This document shows, piece after piece, positions 2,565-62,160 of a stretch of 64,000 bases of DNA. Below the pieces are notes generated by a model. The model had not been told where the DNA came from and did not search any database. It was given only the letters and a program-made list of their open reading frames with translations. How positions within the stretch are numbered: position 1 is the first letter of the stretch; each line of letters starts with the position of its first letter. This stretch comes from Roseicella frigidaeris. GTDB taxonomy: Bacteria; Pseudomonadota; Alphaproteobacteria; Acetobacterales; Acetobacteraceae. The stretch covers positions 1 through 64,000 of the forward strand of contig NZ_QLIX01000006.1 in NCBI RefSeq assembly GCF_003258945.1. The letters are read 5' to 3'. Made by a program: the position numbers and the translations under genes.

Positions 2565-2671
2565 CTAGAGCAGATCCCGATAAGGTGGACTCATCTGATC
2601 GGGTGAAGATGCTCTGAAAACAATAGCCCAGCGCGATTCCCATGAACCGGTGTTCAGGGAAAGCACCCTAG
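2565..2671 (+). repeat. Family A double-hairpin element, copy A1
   Basis: Begins CTAGAGCAGATCC and ends CCTAG. Hairpin 1 pairs CCCGATAAGGTG with CATCTGATCGGG (one mismatch and one wobble pair), enclosed by an outer stem AGAGCA/TGCTCT. The conserved GAAGATGCTCTGAAAACA box follows, then a weaker second hairpin around TTCCCATGAAC / GTTCAGGGAA. It lies between the TonB receptor and tRNA-Glu. It is the only A copy whose CTAG does not end a convincing gene. Confidence 0.8.
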
Positions 2672-11703: not shown

Positions 11704-11810
11704 CTAGAGCAGATCCCGCTCCGGTGGAATCACCGGAGCGGGTGGAGATGCTCTGAAAACAAAAGGCTAGAGCATTGGCTGTGAACGCGGGTGAACGGAC
11801 GATGCCCTAG
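11704..11810 (+). repeat. Family A double-hairpin element, copy A2
   Basis: Starts CTAGAGCAGATCC. Hairpin 1 has a different stem from the other copies yet pairs perfectly: CCCGCTCCGGTG with CACCGGAGCGGG. The outer stem AGAGCA/TGCTCT and the box ending CTGAAAACAA are kept. The second hairpin is only partly paired. The terminal CTAG at 11807-11810 contains the TAG stop codon of the neighbouring minus-strand reductase gene. Confidence 0.85.
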
Positions 11811-12784
11811 TAGCAGCCCGCGAGGCGCGCCCGGGTTCGCAGCAGCGCCAGGATCATCCGGCTGGTCGGCGCCGGCACCCCGGTCATCTCCGCCAGCTCG
11901 ACGACGCTGCCGAGCAGCGCATCCACCTCCATCGGCCGGCCCTTCTCCAGGTCCTGCAGCATGGAGGTCTTGTGCGCCCCGACCTCGGCGCCGCCGGCGA
12001 TGCGCTTGTCGACATCGATGGCGAAGCGCACGCCGAGCGCCTCGGCCACCGCCTGCCCCTCGAGCATCATGGCCCGGACGATGCTGCGCAGCTCGGCATC
12101 GCCGGTGATGACGTCGAGGGTTGCTGTGGTCAGCGCCGAGAGCGGGTTGAAGGCCATGTTGCCCCAGAGCTTCACCCAGATCTCGTCGCGGATCTTCGGC
12201 CGCACCGGCGCCTTGAAGCCGGCGCCGACCAGCGCGGCGGCCAATGCACCGGCCCGCTCGCTGCGGCTGCCATCCGGCTCGCCGAGGCTGAAGCGGTCGC
12301 CATAGGTGTGCAGGATGACGCCGGGCTCCACCACCTCGGCCGCCGGGTAGATGATGCAGCCGAGCACCCGCTCGGGCGGCAGCAAGCGGCCGATCTCGCC
12401 ATCGGGGTCGACGCTCGTCACCCGCCGCCCCTCATAGGGGCCGGCGAGCTTGTGGAAATACCACCAGGGGATGCCGTTCACCGCCGAGACGATGGTGGTG
12501 CCCGCGCCGATCAGCGGCTGCATCTGCACCGCCGCGCCCGCCAGGGCCGGGGCCTTCAGGGTGATGAGGACATAGTCCTGCGGCCCCGCCTCCACCGCGC
12601 TGGCGACGCAGCGCGGATGCACCACGCGCTCCTCGCCCCCGCTGATGAGCTTCAGCCCCCTGGCCTGCATGGCCGCGAGATGCGGCCCGCGGGCGATGAC
12701 GGTGACGTCCACATCGCCCTTGGCGGCCAGCTTCGCGGCCATGAGCCCGCCGATCGCGCCGGCGCCGAAGATGCAGAGTTTCAT
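11807..12784 (-). CDS. Ketopantoate reductase family protein (2-dehydropantoate 2-reductase-like)
   Basis: 325 aa. An N-terminal Rossmann domain with GAGAIGGLMAAKLA (near residues 7-20) binds NADP(H), and the C-terminal helical domain carries KLWGNMAFNPLSALT (near 195-210), typical of ApbA/PanE. It may make pantoate for coenzyme A or reduce another 2-oxo acid; several such paralogues occur in Alphaproteobacteria, so I leave the symbol empty. ATG at 12784 is preferred to a TTG three codons upstream. Its stop codon is supplied by repeat A2. It lies 70 bases downstream of the CoA ligase on the same strand. Confidence 0.88.
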   Translation of the reverse strand: MKLCIFGAGAIGGLMAAKLAAKGDVDVTVIARGPHLAAMQARGLKLISGGEERVVHPRCVASAVEAGPQDYVLITLKAPALAGAAVQMQPLIGAGTTIVSAVNGIPWWYFHKLAGPYEGRRVTSVDPDGEIGRLLPPERVLGCIIYPAAEVVEPGVILHTYGDRFSLGEPDGSRSERAGALAAALVGAGFKAPVRPKIRDEIWVKLWGNMAFNPLSALTTATLDVITGDAELRSIVRAMMLEGQAVAEALGVRFAIDVDKRIAGGAEVGAHKTSMLQDLEKGRPMEVDALLGSVVELAEMTGVPAPTSRMILALLRTRARLAGCY

Positions 12785-22799: not shown

Positions 22800-23975
22800 A
22801 TGCCGATCCTGAACCGTATTGCGGAATTCCACCCCGAGCTCACGGCCTGGCGTCAGGACCTGCACGCCCATCCCGAGATCGCCTTCGAGGAGGTCCGGAC
22901 CAGCGGCATCGTGGCCGAGCGGCTGCGGCAGTTCGGCTGCGACGCGGTGCATACCGGCATCGCCGGCACCGGCGTGGTCGGCGTCATCCGCGGCCAGGGC
23001 GATGGCGACAGGGCGATCGGGCTGCGCGCCGACATGGATGCGCTGCCGATCGAGGAGGCGACGGGCCTGCCCTATGCCTCCACCGTGCCGGGAAAGATGC
23101 ATGCCTGCGGCCATGACGGCCACACCACCATGCTGCTCGGCGCCGCCCGCTACCTGGCCGAGACCCGCAATTTCAGCGGCACGGTCTACCTGATCTTCCA
23201 GCCCGCCGAGGAAGCCGGCGGCGGCGGCAACGTCATGGTGCAGGAAGGGCTGTTCGAGCGCTTCCCGATGGAGCGGGTCTTCGGCATGCACAACTGGCCC
23301 GGCGCGCCGGCGGGCAGCTTCCTCTGGCGCGATGGGCCGGTGATGGCCGCGACGGCCAACCTGCGCGCCACCATCACCGGCAAGGGCGCGCATGGCGCCA
23401 TGCCGCACCAGGGCAACGACCCGATCGTCATCGCCTCGCAGATCGTCACCGCGCTGCAGAGCGTCGTCGCCCGCAATGTCGAGCCGGTCGAGGCCGGGGT
23501 GATCACCATCGGCCACATCCAGGGCGGCGATACCTGGAACGTCATCCCGCAGAGCGTCACCCTCCGCGGCACCGCCCGCTGGTTCAAGCCGGAGGTCGGC
23601 GACCTGCTGGAGGAGAAGTTCACCAGCCTCGTCACCGGCATCGCCACTGCCTTCGGCGCCGCGGCGGAGGCGGTCTTCGAGCGTGGCTATCCCGCCGTCG
23701 TCAACGACCCCGAGAGCACCCTGCTGGCCCGCCAGGCCGCGCTCGCCGTGGCCGGAGAGGCGCGGGTGGTGGAGATGCCCCGCCCCACCATGGGGGGCGA
23801 GGACTTCTCCTACATGCTGAACGCCAAGACCGGGAATTACATCATGCTCGGCGCCGGCCGCGGCCCGGCCGACCCGCAGGTCCACCACCCGCGCTACGAC
23901 TTCAACGACGCGGTGCTGCCGATCGGGGCGAGCTACTGGGCGATGCTGGTCGAACAGCAACTGCCCCGCGGCTAG
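22800..23975 (+). CDS. M20 family amidohydrolase (hippurate hydrolase / IAA-amino-acid hydrolase type)
   Basis: 391 aa zinc or manganese metallohydrolase that cleaves N-acyl amino acids. Metal-binding and catalytic motifs are LRADMDALPIEE near residue 75, KMHACGHDGHTTMLLG near 98, FQPAEEAGGGG near 135 and the late MGGEDFSYML near 335, with GKGAHGAMPH in the dimerisation domain. It lies 89 bases after the dehydratase on the same strand. The true acyl amino acid is not determinable. Confidence 0.93.
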   Translation: MPILNRIAEFHPELTAWRQDLHAHPEIAFEEVRTSGIVAERLRQFGCDAVHTGIAGTGVVGVIRGQGDGDRAIGLRADMDALPIEEATGLPYASTVPGKMHACGHDGHTTMLLGAARYLAETRNFSGTVYLIFQPAEEAGGGGNVMVQEGLFERFPMERVFGMHNWPGAPAGSFLWRDGPVMAATANLRATITGKGAHGAMPHQGNDPIVIASQIVTALQSVVARNVEPVEAGVITIGHIQGGDTWNVIPQSVTLRGTARWFKPEVGDLLEEKFTSLVTGIATAFGAAAEAVFERGYPAVVNDPESTLLARQAALAVAGEARVVEMPRPTMGGEDFSYMLNAKTGNYIMLGAGRGPADPQVHHPRYDFNDAVLPIGASYWAMLVEQQLPRG

Positions 23976-24043
23976 GCCGGCCGGCGCATCGCAGCGGAGA
24001 AGCCGCACAGCCCCTCCCCCACGCTCAAGCACGCGTCAAAATG

Positions 24044-24153
24044 GTCGCTGCCCGTTGCCCTGCCGCGGCTTCGCCGCGGCAGGCTGTGGCGCATCAAGCC
24101 TCAGGAGCGAATCCCGGCTTCCCCGCGATGGCGCGTGGCGGCGTCGTGGGGAG
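24044..24153 (+). repeat. Family C element, copy C1
   Basis: About 110 bases opening with GTCGCTGCCCGTTG and a perfect 11-bp hairpin (CCTGCCGCGGC, TTC loop, GCCGCGGCAGG), then a variable middle, closing with CCCCGCGAtGGCGCG and GTCGTGGGGAGC. Both ends match copy C2 at 50425-50536. Its right edge meets the stop codon of the MFS gene (CTA at 24154-24156 on the plus strand). It lies between convergent genes, so it may also work as a terminator. Confidence 0.8.
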
Positions 24154-25464
24154 CTATTCTGCCGGCGCCGCCTCCCGCTGCTCGAGGGCCGGGTCATGGC
24201 CCATGGCCAGCACCAGGATGCCGGCCGCGAGCGGCAGGACGGCGAGGGCCAGCAGCGCCATGGCGAAGCTGCCGCTGCTCTCCTTCACCCAGCCCACCGC
24301 ATAGGGGCCGACGAAGCCCGCAAGATTCCCGATCGAGTTGATCAGCGCGATGCCGCCCGCCGCGGCGCTGCCCGAGAGCAGCGCGGTCGGCAGCGTCCAG
24401 AAGGGCGGCAGGCAGCCGAAGATGCCGAGCGCGCCGATGCTGAGCACCAGCATCACCATCACCGGGCTGCCCAGCACGGCGCAGGCGGCGAGGCCGGCGG
24501 CCGCCAGCAGCGCCGCCCCGGCGGTGTGCCAGACCCGCTCGCCGGTGCGGTCCGAGCTGCGGCCCCAGAGCACCATGGCGACGGCGCCGAAGGCATAGGG
24601 GATGGCGGTGACGAAGCCGGTGGCGAGGTTGCTCAGCCCGAAGCCCTTGACGATCTGCGGCAGCCAGAAGGACAGGCCGTAATTCGAGGCGACCACGCCG
24701 AAATAGACCAGGCCGAGGCCGATCACCCGCGGATGGCGCAGCGCCTCGCCGAGGGTGAAATGCACCACCGCCTCCTTGCTCCGCCGCTCCTCCTCCAGCC
24801 GGTTCGCCAGCCATTGCCGCTGCGCTGGCTCCAGCCACTGCGCATCGGCGGGCTTGTCGGTGAGGTAGAACAGCACGGCGACCGAGAGCAGCACCGCCGG
24901 CACCGCCTCGATGATGAAGAGCCATTGCCAGCCATCGAGACCCATCACCCCGTGCAGGCCGAGCAGCATGCCGGAGATCGGCGCGCCGATGACCGTCGAG
25001 ATCGGGATGGCGACCATGAAGGCACCGACGATGCCGGCCCGGTAGGTCGCCGGGAACCAGTAGGTCAGGTAGAGGATGATGCCCGGGAAGAAACCCGCCT
25101 CGGCGATGCCGAGCAGGAAGCGGACCAGATAGAGGCTCCATTCGCCCTGCACCAGCGCCATGCAGCCCGAGAGGATGCCCCAGGTGACCATGATGCGGGC
25201 GATCCAGCGCCGCGCGCCCACCTTCTCGAGGATGACGTTGCTCGGCACCTCGAAGAGGAAATAGGCGAGGAAGAAGATGCCGGCGCCCCAGGCATAGGCG
25301 GTGGGGCTGAGGCCGAGCGCCTTGTTCATCTCGAGCGCGGCGAAGCCGACATTCACCCGGTCGAGATAGGCGATGAAGTAGCATAGCATCAGGAACGGAA
25401 CGAGGCGGCGCGACACGCGCGCCATCGTCTCCCGCTCCAGCGCCGAGGTGGTGCTGGCGGACAT
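24154..25464 (-). CDS. MFS transporter, anion:cation symporter (ACS/phthalate permease-like) family
   Basis: 436 aa with about 12 membrane segments. The first reads VPFLMLCYFIAYLDRVNVGFAAL, a hallmark of the ACS family of organic-anion symporters (phthalate, glucarate, tartrate, 4-hydroxyphenylacetate carriers). GVGARRW-like and FFPGIILYLTYWFPATYRA segments support this. I chose ATG at 25464 (MSASTTS). It converges with the amidohydrolase, so it may import the substrate of that neighbour, though they are not in one operon. Confidence 0.92.
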   Translation of the reverse strand: MSASTTSALERETMARVSRRLVPFLMLCYFIAYLDRVNVGFAALEMNKALGLSPTAYAWGAGIFFLAYFLFEVPSNVILEKVGARRWIARIMVTWGILSGCMALVQGEWSLYLVRFLLGIAEAGFFPGIILYLTYWFPATYRAGIVGAFMVAIPISTVIGAPISGMLLGLHGVMGLDGWQWLFIIEAVPAVLLSVAVLFYLTDKPADAQWLEPAQRQWLANRLEEERRSKEAVVHFTLGEALRHPRVIGLGLVYFGVVASNYGLSFWLPQIVKGFGLSNLATGFVTAIPYAFGAVAMVLWGRSSDRTGERVWHTAGAALLAAAGLAACAVLGSPVMVMLVLSIGALGIFGCLPPFWTLPTALLSGSAAAGGIALINSIGNLAGFVGPYAVGWVKESSGSFAMALLALAVLPLAAGILVLAMGHDPALEQREAAPAE

Positions 25465-25640: not shown

Positions 25641-25723
25641 CCGGTTCGCGGACCGGGCCCGGCGCCTCGTTTGGTCGCGTGGAGCACGCCTTCGGTGAGT
25701 CCGTCTCGGGCGATCACGCGTTA
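25641..25723 (+). repeat. Family B element, copy B1
   Basis: Shares CCGGTTCGCGGA, GTTTGGTCGCGTG, CACGCCTTCGGTG and GGCGATCACGC, in the same order and near-identical spacing, with copy B2 at about 33227-33307. GCGTG/CACGC pairs can form nested stems. Its right border (GCGTTAGG) contains the stop codon of the second MFS gene at 25721-25723. The remainder of the 25465-25640 gap shows no gene. Confidence 0.75.
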
Positions 25724-26830
25724 GGCGGCGATGCGCCGGACCAGCCAGAGCAGCAGCAGGGCCAGCCCCGCCAGCAGCACGGGCACCAGGGCGACCGGGG
25801 CCAGGCCGAGCAGGGCCGGCAGCAATCCGGCGCCGAGCGTCGCGGCCGCCACCTGGAAGCCCACGGCATGCACCGCCAGCGCCCCGCCGAGCCGTGCGGG
25901 CGTACGGGCCATGAGCGTCGGGTAGAGCGGCGCCAGCGCGACCGCGAGGAGGCCGACCGAGACGAGGTCCAACCCCGGCGGCGCGAAGGCGAATCCGGCC
26001 GAGGCAACCGCAGCGACGAGCACCGCGATGCGCAGCATCCGGTCCGGCCCGATCCGGTCGACGAGGAAGCCGAGCCCGACCCGGCCGGCCGCCAGCGCGC
26101 CCCAGAAGAGCGCCGTCGCGGCCCCGGCCAGCGCCGGGTCGGCCCCCCGCGCCGCGACCAGGATGGTGGCCAGCCACTGGCCCGTCCCGGCCTCGACGCC
26201 GCAATAGACGAAGAAGGCCAGCACCTGCCGCCGCGCCATGGCGCTGCGCAGCGCCGCGCCCATGGAGGCGGGGGGCCCGCGATCCTCGACCGGCCCGCCC
26301 CAGCACTGCCGCGTCGCCGCGAAGGCGAGCGCCAGCGCCCCCAGCAGCAGCCCGATCACCAGGTAGACATGCCGCCAGGAGGCGCCGCCGGCCAGCAGCA
26401 GGGTGGCGATGGCGGGGCTGAGCGTGGCGCCGATGCCCCAGCAGGCATGCATCCAGTTCAGGTGCCGGGGCGCGAAGCGGGCGGCGGCGAAGAGGTTCAT
26501 CGCCGCATCCACTGCCCCGGCGCCGAGGCCGCTCAGCAGCGCCAGGGCCACCAGCAGCCCCCAGGGCGGCGCCGTGGCGGCGGCCAGCGCCGCGATCGCC
26601 GTCAGGCCGAGGCTGCCCGCCAGCACGCCGCCGATGCCGAGGCGGGCGATGGCGCGGCCCGCCAGCAGGCTGGCGGCCATGGTGCCGCCGGAGACGGCGA
26701 GCAGCAGCAGGCCGAGCGCCGCCTCCGGCCGGCCGTAATCCAACCGCAGCACCGGCCAGAGCGTGCCGGGCAGCGGGTCCGGCAGGCCGAGGCCGATGAA
26801 GGCGATATAGGCGAGGGCCAGCAGCGGCAT
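25721..26830 (-). CDS. MFS transporter
   Basis: 369 aa with about 11-12 hydrophobic segments. The start IAFIGLGLPDPLPGTLWPVL resembles the MFS subgroup of FucP/YbjJ-like carriers. The conserved AGRAIARLGI loop lies between segments 2 and 3, and NLFAAARFAPRHLNWMHACWGIGA is in the middle. No substrate can be assigned. It starts 37 bases after the aspartate dehydrogenase gene on the same strand, suggesting a two-gene operon. Confidence 0.85.
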   Translation of the reverse strand: MPLLALAYIAFIGLGLPDPLPGTLWPVLRLDYGRPEAALGLLLLAVSGGTMAASLLAGRAIARLGIGGVLAGSLGLTAIAALAAATAPPWGLLVALALLSGLGAGAVDAAMNLFAAARFAPRHLNWMHACWGIGATLSPAIATLLLAGGASWRHVYLVIGLLLGALALAFAATRQCWGGPVEDRGPPASMGAALRSAMARRQVLAFFVYCGVEAGTGQWLATILVAARGADPALAGAATALFWGALAAGRVGLGFLVDRIGPDRMLRIAVLVAAVASAGFAFAPPGLDLVSVGLLAVALAPLYPTLMARTPARLGGALAVHAVGFQVAAATLGAGLLPALLGLAPVALVPVLLAGLALLLLWLVRRIAA

Positions 26831-32899: not shown

Positions 32900-32968
32900 T
32901 GCGTCCTGCCACCCGCGCCGGCGGCGGGATCGGAAACCGATGCCGCTTCGATGCTTTGTTGAGGCGTG

Positions 32969-33250
32969 ATGTACCTTCTCGCCCTGCTCGTCCCGCCCCT
33001 CGCCATCCTGCTCGCCGGCCGTCCCTTCCAGGCGGTGTTCAACGGCCTGCTCTGGCTGGCCGGGCTGCTGCTCCTGATCCTTCCCTTCGTGCCGGGGCTG
33101 CTGACCTGGGCTCTCGCCGTGCTATGGGCCGTCCTCGTCGTGCGCGGCCGGAAGCAGGAGGCGCGCGACCGGCGACTGATCGAGACGGCGCTCGAGCGCG
33201 ACCGCGCTAGACCACGATCCGCTCACTCCGGTTCGCGGAGCATGGTCTAG
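32969..33250 (+). CDS. YqaE/Pmp3-like small membrane protein with repeat-encoded tail
   Basis: 93 aa. Two hydrophobic segments with VPPLAILLAGRPFQAVFNGLLW resemble the YqaE/Pmp3 (UPF0057) family of small stress-linked membrane proteins. A charged tail RGRKQEARDRRLIETALERD follows. The last 15 or so residues and the stop codon are encoded inside a CTAG-bounded palindrome (33204-33253). ATG at 32969 and an adjacent GTG at 32966 are both possible starts. The family's core is about 50-60 aa, so this protein is long. Confidence 0.75.
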   Translation: MYLLALLVPPLAILLAGRPFQAVFNGLLWLAGLLLLILPFVPGLLTWALAVLWAVLVVRGRKQEARDRRLIETALERDRARPRSAHSGSRSMV

Positions 33251-33253
33251 CGC
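33204..33253. repeat. CTAG-containing palindrome inside a gene's 3' end
   Basis: GCGCTAGACCA at the left and TGGTCTAGCGC at the right are perfectly complementary, with further pairing inward (GATCCGC / GCGGAGC, mismatched at two positions) around a 12-nt loop. The left half is read through as codons, and the right CTAG gives the stop codon of the YqaE-like gene. It touches family B copy B2. Confidence 0.75.
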
Positions 33254-33307
33254 GTTGTTTGGTCGCGTGATTCACGCCTTCGGTGTTTCCACCTCAGGCG
33301 ATCACGC
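33227..33307 (+). repeat. Family B element, copy B2
   Basis: Shares CCGGTTCGCGGA, GTTTGGTCGCGTG, CACGCCTTCGGTG and GGCGATCACGC with copy B1 (25641-25723), at matched spacing. GCGTGAT / ATCACGC and CGCCT / AGGCG, with GGTG / CACC inside, form a nested stem. It overlaps the right half of the CTAG palindrome at 33204-33253. Confidence 0.75.
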
Positions 33308-33364
33308 TCCAGCCGGGTCGGCTGATCCCGCGGCCATTGCGGCCCGGGCAGGGGGAGGATGCGG

Positions 33365-50354: not shown

Positions 50355-50424
50355 ACCCGCCCGCGTGGCCGGCCAACGGCTTCGCGGGACCGTCGCTCAG
50401 GGGTCCGGGCCAACTGTCGAAGGC

Positions 50425-50536
50425 GTCGCCGCCCGTTGTCCTGCCGCGGCTTTGCCGCGGCAGGCTGGGACCTATCCAGGGCCCGAGGCGACTGACCGGG
50501 GCCCCCGCGACGGCGCGCAGCGACGTCGTGGGGAGC
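50425..50536 (+). repeat. Family C element, copy C2
   Basis: Opens GTCGCCGCCCGTTG, then the perfect 11-bp hairpin CCTGCCGCGGC / GCCGCGGCAGG with TTT loop. A variable middle follows, and it closes CCCCGCGAcGGCGCG and GTCGTGGGGAGC, like C1 at 24044-24153. It is joined within two bases to family A copy A3. It lies just beyond metC and may act as its terminator. Confidence 0.8.
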
Positions 50537-50538
50537 AC

Positions 50539-50645
50539 CTAGAGCAGATCCCGATCAGGTGGATCTCGCCTGATCGGGTGAAGATGCTCTGAAAACAAAA
50601 GCCTAGGGCACTTCTCCTGAACCGGTGTCAGGGGAAGTGCCCTAG
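50539..50645 (+). repeat. Family A double-hairpin element, copy A3
   Basis: Starts CTAGAGCAGATCC. Hairpin 1: CCCGATCAGG with CCTGATCGGG. Outer stem AGAGCA/TGCTCT kept, then CTGAAAACAA. Hairpin 2 is long: GGGCACTTCTCCTGA with TCAGGGGAAGTGCCC (one wobble). The terminal CCTAG supplies the TAG stop codon of the glycine-zipper lipoprotein gene on the minus strand. Confidence 0.88.
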
Positions 50646-50914
50646 CGCCGCGAGGCGCGGCCCTGGTAGTAGCCCTGCTGGTAGGCGCGCTGCTGCGACT
50701 GCTGGCTCTGGTCGAAGAGGTAGCCGCCGCCGGCGCCGAGGCCGCCGCCGATCAGCGCGCCGAGGCCGGCATCGCCGGCGATCGCGCCGATCAGCGCGCC
50801 GCCCGCGGCCCCCGCCGCGCCGCCGGTCAGGGTGCGCTGCTGGGTCGGGTTCAGGTCGCCGCAGCCGGCGAGGCCGAGCGCGAGGAGGGCGGGCAGGAGA
50901 ACGGTCTTGCGCAT
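50642..50914 (-). CDS. Glycine-zipper lipoprotein
   Basis: 90 aa. The lipoprotein signal ends LALGLAGCGD (cysteine at residue 18). A glycine-zipper hairpin follows (GGAAGAAGGALIGAIAGDAG and GALIGGGLGAGGG), then a Gln/Tyr-rich end (QSQQSQQRAYQQGYYQGR). It resembles the small YMGG/SlyB-like outer-membrane lipoproteins that respond to envelope stress. ATG 50914 lies 10 bases after the Rap1a/Tai-like gene. Its stop codon is part of repeat A3. Confidence 0.85.
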   Translation of the reverse strand: MRKTVLLPALLALGLAGCGDLNPTQQRTLTGGAAGAAGGALIGAIAGDAGLGALIGGGLGAGGGYLFDQSQQSQQRAYQQGYYQGRASRR

Positions 50915-56358: not shown

Positions 56359-56465
56359 CCAGGGCGCTTCCCGTGAACGCCGGGTCATGGGAAGCGCCTT
56401 AGGCTATTGTTTTCAGAGCATCTTCACCTGTCCGGATGAGGTCATCCGGACAGGATCTGCTCTAG
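56359..56465 (-). repeat. Family A double-hairpin element, copy A4 (inverted)
   Basis: Read on the minus strand it starts CTAGAGCAGATCC. Hairpin 1 has a third stem sequence, again perfectly paired: CCTGTCCGGATG with CATCCGGACAGG. Outer stem AGAGCA/TGCTCT and CTGAAAACAA are kept. Hairpin 2 pairs AGGCGCTTCCCATGA with a near-perfect partner. Its CTAG supplies the stop codon of the Gfo/Idh gene; the other end lies 30 bases past lpxB. Confidence 0.88.
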
Positions 56466-57436
56466 GACAGGCGCGGCGCGCGGCGGCGCCGGGCGGGTTG
56501 CGGCTGGTCACCGGCCACCGCCTGCTCGATCCGCAGCGCGGCGTCGAGCGCCCGCAGCCCGACCTCGCCGCTCGCCTCCACCGGCGCGCCCTGCTCGATG
56601 CTGGCCGTGAAGGCCGTCTGCTCCGCCTCCAGGCTGTCATGCTCCGTCCAGGTGGCGCGGTCGATGCCCCAGCCGGGCATGGTGGCGACCGGCTCGGCGC
56701 CGCCGGGATGCAGGCGTTCCAGGCTGCGGGCGAGGAAATCCACCCGCGTCTCGCCCTCGGGGCCGAGTAGCCGCAGCCGCCGCTCCAGCCCGACGCTGAT
56801 CCGGCTCGCGGTGATGGTCGCGGCGGCGCCGCTGGCGAAGCGGAGCTGGGCGACGACGAAATCCGGATGGTCGGACATCACCCGCCGCCCGACCGCCGCC
56901 ACCTCGACGAGCGGCGAGGCGGCGAGGCTCAGGATCAGGTCGATGTCGTGGATCATCAGGTCCAGCACCACCGACACGTCGAGGCTGCGCGGGCGGAAGG
57001 GGGCGACGCGGATGGCCTCGAGGGCCAGCGCCCCCTCGGCGGCGCCGCTCTCGCGCAGGGTGCGGATGGCGGCCGAGTAGCGCTCGATATGCCCGACCTG
57101 CAGCACCAGCCCGCGATCGCGGGCGCCGCGGATGATGGCCTCGGCCTGGGCGGTGGTCGCCGCGATCGGCTTCTCGACCAGAAGATGCCGGCCGGCGGCG
57201 ATCGCCTGCAAGGCATAGGCATGGTGGAAGGCGGTGGGGACGGTGATGATGACCGCGTCGCTGCCGTCGATCAGCCCGGCGGCGTCGCGGGCCTGGGAGC
57301 CGCATTCGGCCGCGACGGCCCGGGCCCGGGCCGGATCGGCGTCGTGCACGCCCGAGAGGACGCCGCGCGCCGCCAGCTTGAGGGCGTGGAAGCGCCCGAA
57401 ATGCCCGGTGCCGATGACGCCGATCCTGAGAGCCAT
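56462..57436 (-). CDS. Gfo/Idh/MocA family oxidoreductase
   Basis: 324 aa. N-terminal Rossmann domain IGVIGTGHFGRFHALKLA near residue 4. The catalytic EKPIA motif (HLLVEKPIAAT) is near 92 with VGHIERYS near 122 and HDIDLIL near 168. It oxidises a sugar or sugar nucleotide; the substrate is unknown. It converges on lpxB; one Gfo/Idh branch (GnnA) makes 3-amino-GlcNAc for lipid A, but there is no adjacent aminotransferase (GnnB). Its stop codon is part of repeat A4. Confidence 0.9.
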   Translation of the reverse strand: MALRIGVIGTGHFGRFHALKLAARGVLSGVHDADPARARAVAAECGSQARDAAGLIDGSDAVIITVPTAFHHAYALQAIAAGRHLLVEKPIAATTAQAEAIIRGARDRGLVLQVGHIERYSAAIRTLRESGAAEGALALEAIRVAPFRPRSLDVSVVLDLMIHDIDLILSLAASPLVEVAAVGRRVMSDHPDFVVAQLRFASGAAATITASRISVGLERRLRLLGPEGETRVDFLARSLERLHPGGAEPVATMPGWGIDRATWTEHDSLEAEQTAFTASIEQGAPVEASGEVGLRALDAALRIEQAVAGDQPQPARRRRAPRLS

Positions 57437-60879: not shown

Positions 60880-62055
60880 GTGGCCGTGCACTCTTCAGGC
60901 GTATCTCCTGGCAGCACGCGTGGAGAGCAGGTCCTCGTCCTTGCCCGCGATCCCATCCAGATCGCGGCGGCCACCGCCGCCACGGCGCGCCTTGGCTGGC
61001 TGACCCGCTTCGTCCGCAGCGGTGACGAAGCGCTGGCCCGCCTGGCCGGTCCCGGCCCCGCCCCTGGTCATCTCGTCTGCGATCCCGTGGCCGCCGGCGC
61101 CGCCTGGCCCGGCCTGCTGGCGACCCTCGCAGATCCGGCCACCCGCACCGCCCTGATCCTGCTCGCCCCCGCCCCCGGTGCCGCGCATTGGGCGCCGCCC
61201 GTGCCCGGGGAGGCCGATGCGCTGGCCCGCGCCCTGGCCGCTCCCGGACCTGCACCCGGCCCCGCGGCCGGCGGCCCGCCGCAGGACGGCCATTCCGCCG
61301 GGGCGCTGCGCGAGAGCCTGGCGCGGGGCGAGATCAGCGTGCACTACCAACCGGTCGTGCGGCTGTCGGATCGCCGGCCGGTGATGGTCGAGGCGCTGGC
61401 GCGCTGGCACCGGCCGGAGGCGGCGGTGCCGCCCGATGCCTTCGTGCCGCTGGCCGAGCGGCATGGGATGGGGCGCAGCCTGTCGCTCAGCGTCGCCCGC
61501 ACCGCGGCGCTCGAGATCGGCCACCTCTGGCCGCGGCTGCGGCTCGGCGTGTCGATCAACCTGCCCTTGGCGCAGCTCCTGCAGGGCGACCTGCAAACCT
61601 GGCTGCGGCAGGCGCTGGGCCGGCACGGGCTCGGGCCGCGGCAGCTGGCGCTGGAGCTGACCGAGACCACGCCGGTGCACGACCTGGCCCGGCTGCACCG
61701 CGTGCTGCTGGGGCTGCGCCAGGCCGGCTATCGCGTGCTGCTCGACGACGTCACCCCGGGCGATGGGCGGGAGGCGCTGCTTCACCTGCCCTTCGCCGGG
61801 CTGAAGCTCGACCGGTCGCTGGTGCAGCGCCTGCCGGTCGAGGCGCATGGCCGCCAGGAGGTCCGGCGGCTGGTGCGGCTGGCGCGGGCGCAGGGGCAGA
61901 CGGTGGTTGCCGAGGGCATCTCCGACCGCCGCATATGGATGGCGGTCTGCGATCTCGGCGTCGATTTCGGCCAGGGCTACGCGGTCGGGCGGCCCTTGCC
62001 GGCGCCGGCGCTGTTCGGCTGGTGGGCACGCTGGCGGCGCAGCCGCCTGGCCTAG
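60880..62055 (+). CDS. EAL-domain protein with degenerate loop 6 and receiver-like N-terminus
   Basis: 391 aa. Residues 1-125 resemble a worn receiver domain (QVLVLARDPIQIAAATAATARLG). The EAL domain spans about 145-380: VEALARWHRP near 170, SINLPLAQ near 228, LELTETTP near 260, then LLDDVTPGD near 288 where active enzymes have DDFGTGxS, LKLDRSLV near 309 and VAEGISD near 345. Most metal ligands are kept but loop 6 is altered, so activity is doubtful and a c-di-GMP-binding or regulatory role is possible. GTG at 60880 or 60886. The stop codon belongs to repeat A5. Confidence 0.85.
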   Translation: MAVHSSGVSPGSTRGEQVLVLARDPIQIAAATAATARLGWLTRFVRSGDEALARLAGPGPAPGHLVCDPVAAGAAWPGLLATLADPATRTALILLAPAPGAAHWAPPVPGEADALARALAAPGPAPGPAAGGPPQDGHSAGALRESLARGEISVHYQPVVRLSDRRPVMVEALARWHRPEAAVPPDAFVPLAERHGMGRSLSLSVARTAALEIGHLWPRLRLGVSINLPLAQLLQGDLQTWLRQALGRHGLGPRQLALELTETTPVHDLARLHRVLLGLRQAGYRVLLDDVTPGDGREALLHLPFAGLKLDRSLVQRLPVEAHGRQEVRRLVRLARAQGQTVVAEGISDRRIWMAVCDLGVDFGQGYAVGRPLPAPALFGWWARWRRSRLA

Positions 62056-62160
62056 AGCAGATCCCGATCAGGTGGACCCACCTGATCGGGTGAAGAGGCC
62101 CTGAAAACAATGCTCTAGAGCCGATTGCGTTCGGATGGACCCATCCGAACGCGGGGCGAT
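62052..62160 (+). repeat. Family A double-hairpin element, copy A5
   Basis: Starts CTAGAGCAGATCC, where TAG is the stop of the EAL gene. Hairpin 1: CCCGATCAGGTG with CACCTGATCGGG, perfect. The outer stem is broken here (GGCCCT instead of TGCTCT). Hairpin 2 has yet another sequence, perfectly paired: GCGTTCGGATG with CATCCGAACGC, preceded by a second CTAGAGC. It ends a few bases before the stop of the alcohol dehydrogenase gene. Confidence 0.85.

Follow-up and report, generated by a model that had tools for sequence, protein, structure and literature searches.

Palindromic repeat modules of Roseicella frigidaeris often lie on gene stop codons, most likely through insertion into the rare word CTAG

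Introduction

Repeats that supply gene stops would seem to be known already, with the BOX element of Streptococcus pneumoniae as the published precedent. In the part of PMC3049150 that deals with gene overlaps, 36 of 58 cases had the stop codon provided by BOX, at the very 3' end of the gene, and the orthologues of the overlapped genes gave no strong evidence of truncation. BOX differs from the repeats described here in sequence and in host, and a rare target word is not invoked in that part of the BOX text. In common with BOX, the repeats of Roseicella frigidaeris are short, modular and supply the stops of genes.

The miniature elements (MITEs) of the IS630/Tc1-mariner group include RUP, Correia and Nezha. 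ISY100 inserts at TA and duplicates it, according to the relevant lines of PMC2170065, and IS630 favours the TA in CTAG, as stated in a sentence of PMC6811581 and in the title of Tenzen and Ohtsubo (1991). RUP has been linked to IS630-Spn1. As far as these extracts go, the frigidaeris modules resemble the insertion sequences and MITEs of this group in target and duplication (TA) and IS630 in the CTAG preference. MITEPsy1 of Pseudomonas syringae, an IS5-type element, is 100 nt long and non-coding and has CTAG or YTAA as its target in the excerpt of PMC3189936. The duplication given there for MITEPsy1 is 4 nt, whereas the informative arrays of R. frigidaeris duplicated TA only. REP/BIME palindromes (RAYT transposases) and rhizobial RIME are high-copy intergenic palindromes in mosaic arrays, and in these features the modules are like them. 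One end of a REP is marked by GTAG or CGTC (PMC3733652). Among the open-licence full texts in the matches listed, titles and abstract openings gave no account of these modules or of CTAG targeting as a cause of landing on stops.

Materials and Methods

The window is the whole stretch of DNA that was analysed, 64,000 nt at positions 1-64000 of its contig (C56:1-64000), from a genome of 5.82 Mb. Together with 100 further stretches it made up a sample of 1.97 Mb of the 5.82 Mb; the stretches lie mostly around M1 copies, so the sample is element-enriched, and 11 of the 100 were placed regardless of elements. Genes were called with a simple codon-usage script rather than a standard program, which gave 1853 genes, 1790 of them with a stop. 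A profile search with five module types (M1, M2, M2b, M3 and M4) found 189 arrays in the 1.97 Mb. They have 378 ends, and 62 of these were set aside as truncated. The edge word of an array was the most CTAG-like word within 3 bases.

Results

Five A copies were found in the window, at 2565-2671, 11704-11810, 50539-50645, 56359-56465 and 62052-62118, each with CTAGAGCAGATCC at its start and composed of palindromic modules joined at CTAG. The first-pass annotation had claimed that four of the five contain the stop of the adjacent gene in their outer CTAG, and this was borne out. The M1+M2 array at 50539-50645 (+) has as its right edge the CTAG at 50642-50645, which is the stop (50642-50644) of a Gly-zipper protein (lipoprotein) gene at 50642-50914 (-). 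Likewise, the right-edge CTAG of the M1+M2b array at 11704-11810 (+) is the stop (11807-11809) of a ketopantoate-reductase-like gene at 11807-12784 (-). In the M1+M2 array at 56359-56465 (-), the M1-side edge CTAG at 56462-56465 is the stop (56462-56464) of a Gfo/Idh gene at 56462-57436 (-). The copy at 62052-62118 (+) consists of M1 and then a further partial module that is absent from the profiles, and its left-edge CTAG (62052-62055) is the stop (62053-62055) of an EAL gene at 61087-62055 (+). Each of these neighbours matched its family (ketopantoate reductase, Gly-zipper, Gfo/Idh and EAL). The exception is the M1+M2 array at 2565-2671 (+), neither edge of which is a gene stop.

For three other repeats the annotation was right about the presence of a stop but not about its setting. 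The B1 copy, an M3 module at 25659-25724 (-), does hold the stop (25721-25723) of the MFS gene at 25721-26830 (-), but as TAA in the edge word CTAA and not as TAG. B2 and the palindrome beside it form an M4+M3 array at 33207-33312 (-). The small YqaE-like ORF at 32966-33250 (+) continues across M4 to a stop at 33248-33250, in the internal CTAG (33247-33250) between the two modules and not at an outer edge; its C-terminus is unlike that of its counterpart in the closest relative, Roseicella sp. DB1501 (G003, about 91% identical), which ends ERDRAGRVG where this one ends ERDRARPRSAHSGSRSMV. The C-type repeat at 24035-24156 (no strand assigned) adjoins the stop at 24154-24156, as had been noted, but this stop is ATAG and the repeat is of a different type, composed of other GC-rich hairpins and lacking a CTAG edge. 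The C type, seen for example at 24035-24156 and 50416-50540, is a GC-rich repeat unrelated to the modules, and its hairpins include TTCCCCACGAAG and CCTGCCGCGGC. It too often starts only a few bases from a stop codon, at several loci, and lacks a CTAG edge. A search of the window for Rfam RNA families at the gathering score gave only two tRNAs and no match to the arrays.

A 16-base module probe, with at most 3 mismatches, matched 132 places in the genome, against 2 for the reversed control. The M1 pattern (at most 1 mismatch) was present in 10 of the 59 genomes searched, R. frigidaeris included, with 108 matches here, 50 in G001 and 33 in DB1501, and in none of 24 genomes outside the family. 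Among the 213 untruncated array ends that face an oncoming gene, the stop lay exactly on the edge in 85, and any other distance occurred at most 4 times. The edge words of these 85 stops were CTAG (69), TTAG (8), GTAG (4), ATAG (2) and CTAA (2). The 11 stretches placed blind to elements, with 206 genes, yielded 12 arrays and 7 edge stops. The landing of the palindromic repeats on stops is thus confirmed as real and genome-wide.

Two side observations concern the arrays themselves. Of the untruncated edges other than stops (231, from the window and L009-L108), 95 still had CTAG, and CTGG (47) and CCAG (43) look like one-step decay of TA toward GC. Multi-module tandem arrays (L046, L049, L085 and others) have CTAG junctions in common, as if modules had inserted into each other's edges, and as many as six profile hits fell in one array, the palindromic M2 often being matched on both strands.

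Insertion at random near gene ends, where whichever gene runs in meets the TAG of the element and its protein is trimmed or extended, predicts a TAG frame in about one of three cases. We counted genes that reach the edge or end within 100 bases inside the array, leaving out one gene with an offset of over 1000 bases. The TAG frame was used by 89 of 96 such genes (4 of the 89 with a decayed edge) and the other two frames by 7 (p about 2e-34), which is not what random insertion gives. The ORF ending at 33248-33250 was altered in just this way, and the 7 genes entering in another frame can be read likewise; the frames, expected at about 1:2, and the gene ends, which fell on the same codon as in the relative in 10 of 15 comparisons, stand against it. 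The frame test therefore rules out random insertion with a stop supplied by the element as the main cause, and we regard it as extremely improbable. Insertion at stop codons, as the annotation suggested, gained support from this frame bias and from two clean empty sites, described below, in which a TAG stop was already there.

The distribution of CTAG in the sample was examined next to that of the arrays. CTAG is depleted: the 1.97 Mb contain it 559 times, where its trinucleotides predict 1977. Away from recognised modules, 71 CTAGs were stops, 196 intergenic and 54 within genes, so that about a quarter of the element-free non-coding CTAGs are gene stops. At array edges the numbers were 70, 90 and 3, and 75 more CTAGs, 3 of them stops, lay inside arrays. 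The annotation was to fall if copies were not enriched at stops relative to intergenic CTAGs; enrichment was found when edge CTAGs (70 of 160 being stops) were set against element-free non-coding CTAGs (71 of 267; p = 0.0003, odds about two-fold), and the remainder of the effect follows from where CTAG is located. Counted by site, arrays used 82 of 153 stop, 106 of 302 intergenic and 1 of 55 in-gene CTAGs, which means that insertions within genes are nearly absent. Relative to the intergenic CTAGs, stops were used more (odds ratio 2.1, p = 0.0002); some of the intergenic CTAGs may be remnants of modules that went unrecognised, which would inflate their number and with it this two-fold excess. 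The excess goes beyond plain availability, which does not explain it. In the sample, which is element-enriched, 69 of 144 CTAG stops bear a module.

The base before TAG was informative. Element-free TAG stops were preceded by C in 75, G in 115, A in 77 and T in 18 cases. C preceded 69 TAG stops with an element and 75 without, while T, G or A preceded 14 and 210 (p about 9e-21, odds ratio 13.8). This bias of the edge words toward C, set against the element-free stops, indicates that the base before TA is that of the gene and that C is strongly preferred. The preference for CTAG as target, by which IS630-type MITEs are recognised, was seen in 69 of 85 stop edges.

How much of the target is duplicated can be read from the 14 TAG stop edges with a non-C base, 8 of which have an untruncated far edge; the far-edge registers were fixed by the module sequence, and L022 (CTAA), which does not discriminate, was left out of the eight. 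The G of the element next to TA was kept at the far edge in all eight, where a 4-base duplication would have copied the base of the gene. It suggests that only TA is duplicated, that the element starts with G and that TA+G rebuilds TAG. A TA target-site duplication, a mark of IS630-type MITEs, was therefore found in 8 of 8 informative arrays; the empty site at L070 agrees with TA, and that at window position 23975 with either TA or CTAG. The earlier idea that a CTAG borne by the element supplies the stop consequently stood for the final G, which is the element's, and failed for the base before TA and for TA itself, which are the gene's in these arrays.

The same arrays bear on mobilisation of the IS5 type with duplication of a 4-base YTAR (CTAG), as in MITEPsy1 and IS5. 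The words CTAG, TTAG and CTAA fit the IS5 target list and the CTAG or YTAA of MITEPsy1, as given in the excerpts at hand, and another insertion sequence with TTAGAGCC ends is present on contig C64. Duplication of 4 bases at NTAG, however, predicts CTAA, CTAC or CTAT at the far edge, and the YTAR duplication typical of IS5-type MITEs was not found in the informative arrays, where the fourth far-edge base was G throughout; five of the eight read TTAG, possibly through a later change of C to T, and the other three are GTAG (two) or ATAG (one). In the GTAG case L070 the empty site of the relative likewise has a non-C base, and it fits TA better than 4 bases. We consider an IS5-type origin improbable.

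Three empty sites were compared. At L070, DB1501 has a TAG stop without a module, and the lengths agree with duplication of TA. At window position 23975 the module is absent here (CTAG-GCCG), and DB1501 reads CTAG-module-CCAG-GCCG. The site at L035 is non-decisive: a 4-base difference is compatible, with CGTC in place of CTAG.

The annotation had also proposed that elements replaced the original gene ends, and comparison of orthologue C-termini with DB1501 showed that this is not the rule. Of the 15 comparisons in which one side only carries a module at the stop, 10 showed the same end codon in both genomes (reductase, MFS, EAL, window 23975, L070 16807, L071 9955, L071 10069, L079 6391, L091 10061 and L091 18694-19323) and 5 an end shifted by 1-5 residues (window 43485, Gfo/Idh 56462, L068 7278, L091 13567 and L091 14973). 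Cases with the stop inside the array and not on its edge (window 32966, L049 2117, L086 9146), with arrays in both genomes (L095 1915) or with the array a few bases off (L079 9274) were left out. Between element-free pairs the gene end differed in 16 of 115, versus the 5 of 15 with an element (p = 0.07). Eight other relatives shown for Gfo/Idh end 11-15 residues earlier, which indicates that the tail of this gene is variable. At the reductase locus DB1501 has kept the left half of M1 further off, together with a C-type repeat. The only lipoprotein orthologue found, in Dankookia rubra, ends at the same codon with TGA.

On the element-free side of the ten same-codon comparisons the stop was TGA in 7, TAG in 2 and TAA in 1. 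The partner had TGA for 7 of 27 element-free TAG stops versus 7 of 10 with an element (p = 0.023, unadjusted), and for 2 of 6 when only element-free CTAG stops were taken (p = 0.30). The reductase has TGA in DB1501 and in five same-codon outgroups (G001, G002, G004, G019 and G025); among five further loci, L122, L127 and L128 have TGA 1-2 residues on, and L123 (TAA) and L124 (TAG) end at other places. For L071 10069, six outgroups end at the same codon, five with TGA and one with GTAG. EAL has TAA in DB1501; of four outgroups, three have TGA and one TAG. At L091 10061, DB1501 and G002 have different modules at the same CTAG stop (that of G002 judged by eye), and the module-free genomes have TGA (R. 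frigidaeris, G001, G019 and G025) or TAA (G004). Stops thus switch among TGA, TAA and TAG in this group, with modules found where the stop is TAG, and the order of events could be either way. Instability of CTAG as the origin of TGA in relatives was unsupported, in that the 4 element-free CTAG stops with a same-codon DB1501 partner were all CTAG there.

These comparisons also allow insertion to be actively directed to translation stops, or TGA to be converted to the TAG of the element, with no prior CTAG needed. The TGA of the reductase in the six same-codon relatives, the different modules on one stop at L091 10061 and the two-fold excess over intergenic CTAGs speak for it. Against it, the far edge of stop-anchored arrays had C as first base in 53 of 57 readable cases (28 more are truncated). 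This is what would follow from a G after TA, with the old stop already TAG, although the choice of the most CTAG-like edge word favours C. Moreover, both clean empty sites have TAG, and we know of no transposition chemistry that turns TGA into TAG. We give this explanation little weight. It is also rather unlikely that modules are steered to stops beyond the availability of CTAG, repeatedly and independently in related species, with TGA exchanged for the TAG of the element at TGA genes and the gene end unmoved; if it were true, a mobile element would be reshaping the stop codon usage of its host.

Arrays might, on the other hand, be selected as portable gene ends, providing a stop together with a transcription terminator, so that insertions at stops are kept as helpful. 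Shuffled versions of the array at the lipoprotein stop fold much less well than the array itself (z = -7.05), and the succession of M2 and the T-rich side of M1 is reminiscent of an intrinsic terminator. With truncated ends included, edge stops occurred in 50 of 82 arrays flanked by convergent genes and in 35 of 87 flanked by tandem genes. No preference of orientation was seen, however, the stop lying at 39 of 71 M1-side ends and 26 of 49 M2-side ends (p = 0.85), whereas a T run behind the hairpin is expected on the M2 side only. Such selection seems to us an unlikely cause.

As to the enzyme, the genome has six matches to the IS630-type DDE_3 domain, five of them over the cut-off. The IS630 copy at L113 has the HTH_Tnp_IS630 and DDE_3 domains in separate frames and CTAGAGCGG (CTAGAGC) at both ends; it matches 4 places in the genome, the ends being read for part of them. 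The element, at L113:1353-2391, overlaps the end of an ORF that by eye resembles an amino-acid ABC permease. Modules mostly start with CTAGAGC or CTAGGGC, and TAGAGC only is in common with the IS630 ends read. Unlike the IS630 copies, with which they share few terminal bases, the modules are GC-rich and form mosaic arrays. Judged from these terminal sequences the resemblance is short, and the IS630 partner is a candidate only. The Y1 (RAYT) transposase, PF01797, had no match in the genome (98.48% complete), as against 5 of 14 control genomes with one, and the modules differ in this from the REP/RAYT system. Mobilisation by RAYT was ruled out on this basis.

Discussion

The position of the arrays on stop edges is most likely owed to insertion into the rare word CTAG, which is found disproportionately at gene ends; the gene keeps its stop and the protein is usually unchanged. 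We think it probable that the repeats are mobile modules, non-autonomous and of the IS630/Tc1-mariner type, which insert at TA mostly in CTAG, duplicate TA and find in stops a target that is large and harmless. This reading is built on four observations: the bias in frame, the favouring of C ahead of TAG, the finding that the informative arrays duplicate TA and nothing more, and the two clean empty sites.

According to the mechanism proposed, a module would insert at a TA dinucleotide, with strong preference for a CTAG context, and TA would be duplicated. Module ends would begin with G, and after insertion in the TA of a TAG stop, TA and this G would form TAG again on the gene side. Since TA+G rebuilds TAG, the protein would not be altered. 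The genome is strongly depleted of CTAG, above all within genes, and a fair number of the CTAGs left are C+TAG at gene ends. Because the remaining CTAGs are often such gene ends, stop codons may serve as a large target at which insertion does no harm. Later modules would insert into the CTAG of earlier ones and so build mosaic arrays. A transposase of the IS630 type may be the mover, arrays may grow by insertion at module edges, and modules at stops are presumably retained neutrally.

Taken together, the data offer a simple explanation for the crowding of small mobile repeats at gene ends: an element whose rare palindromic target includes a stop codon, and whose own first base restores that stop, has a safe place to land. 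They also carry a warning that mobile DNA in genomes of this kind can shape 3' regions as well as stop codon usage.
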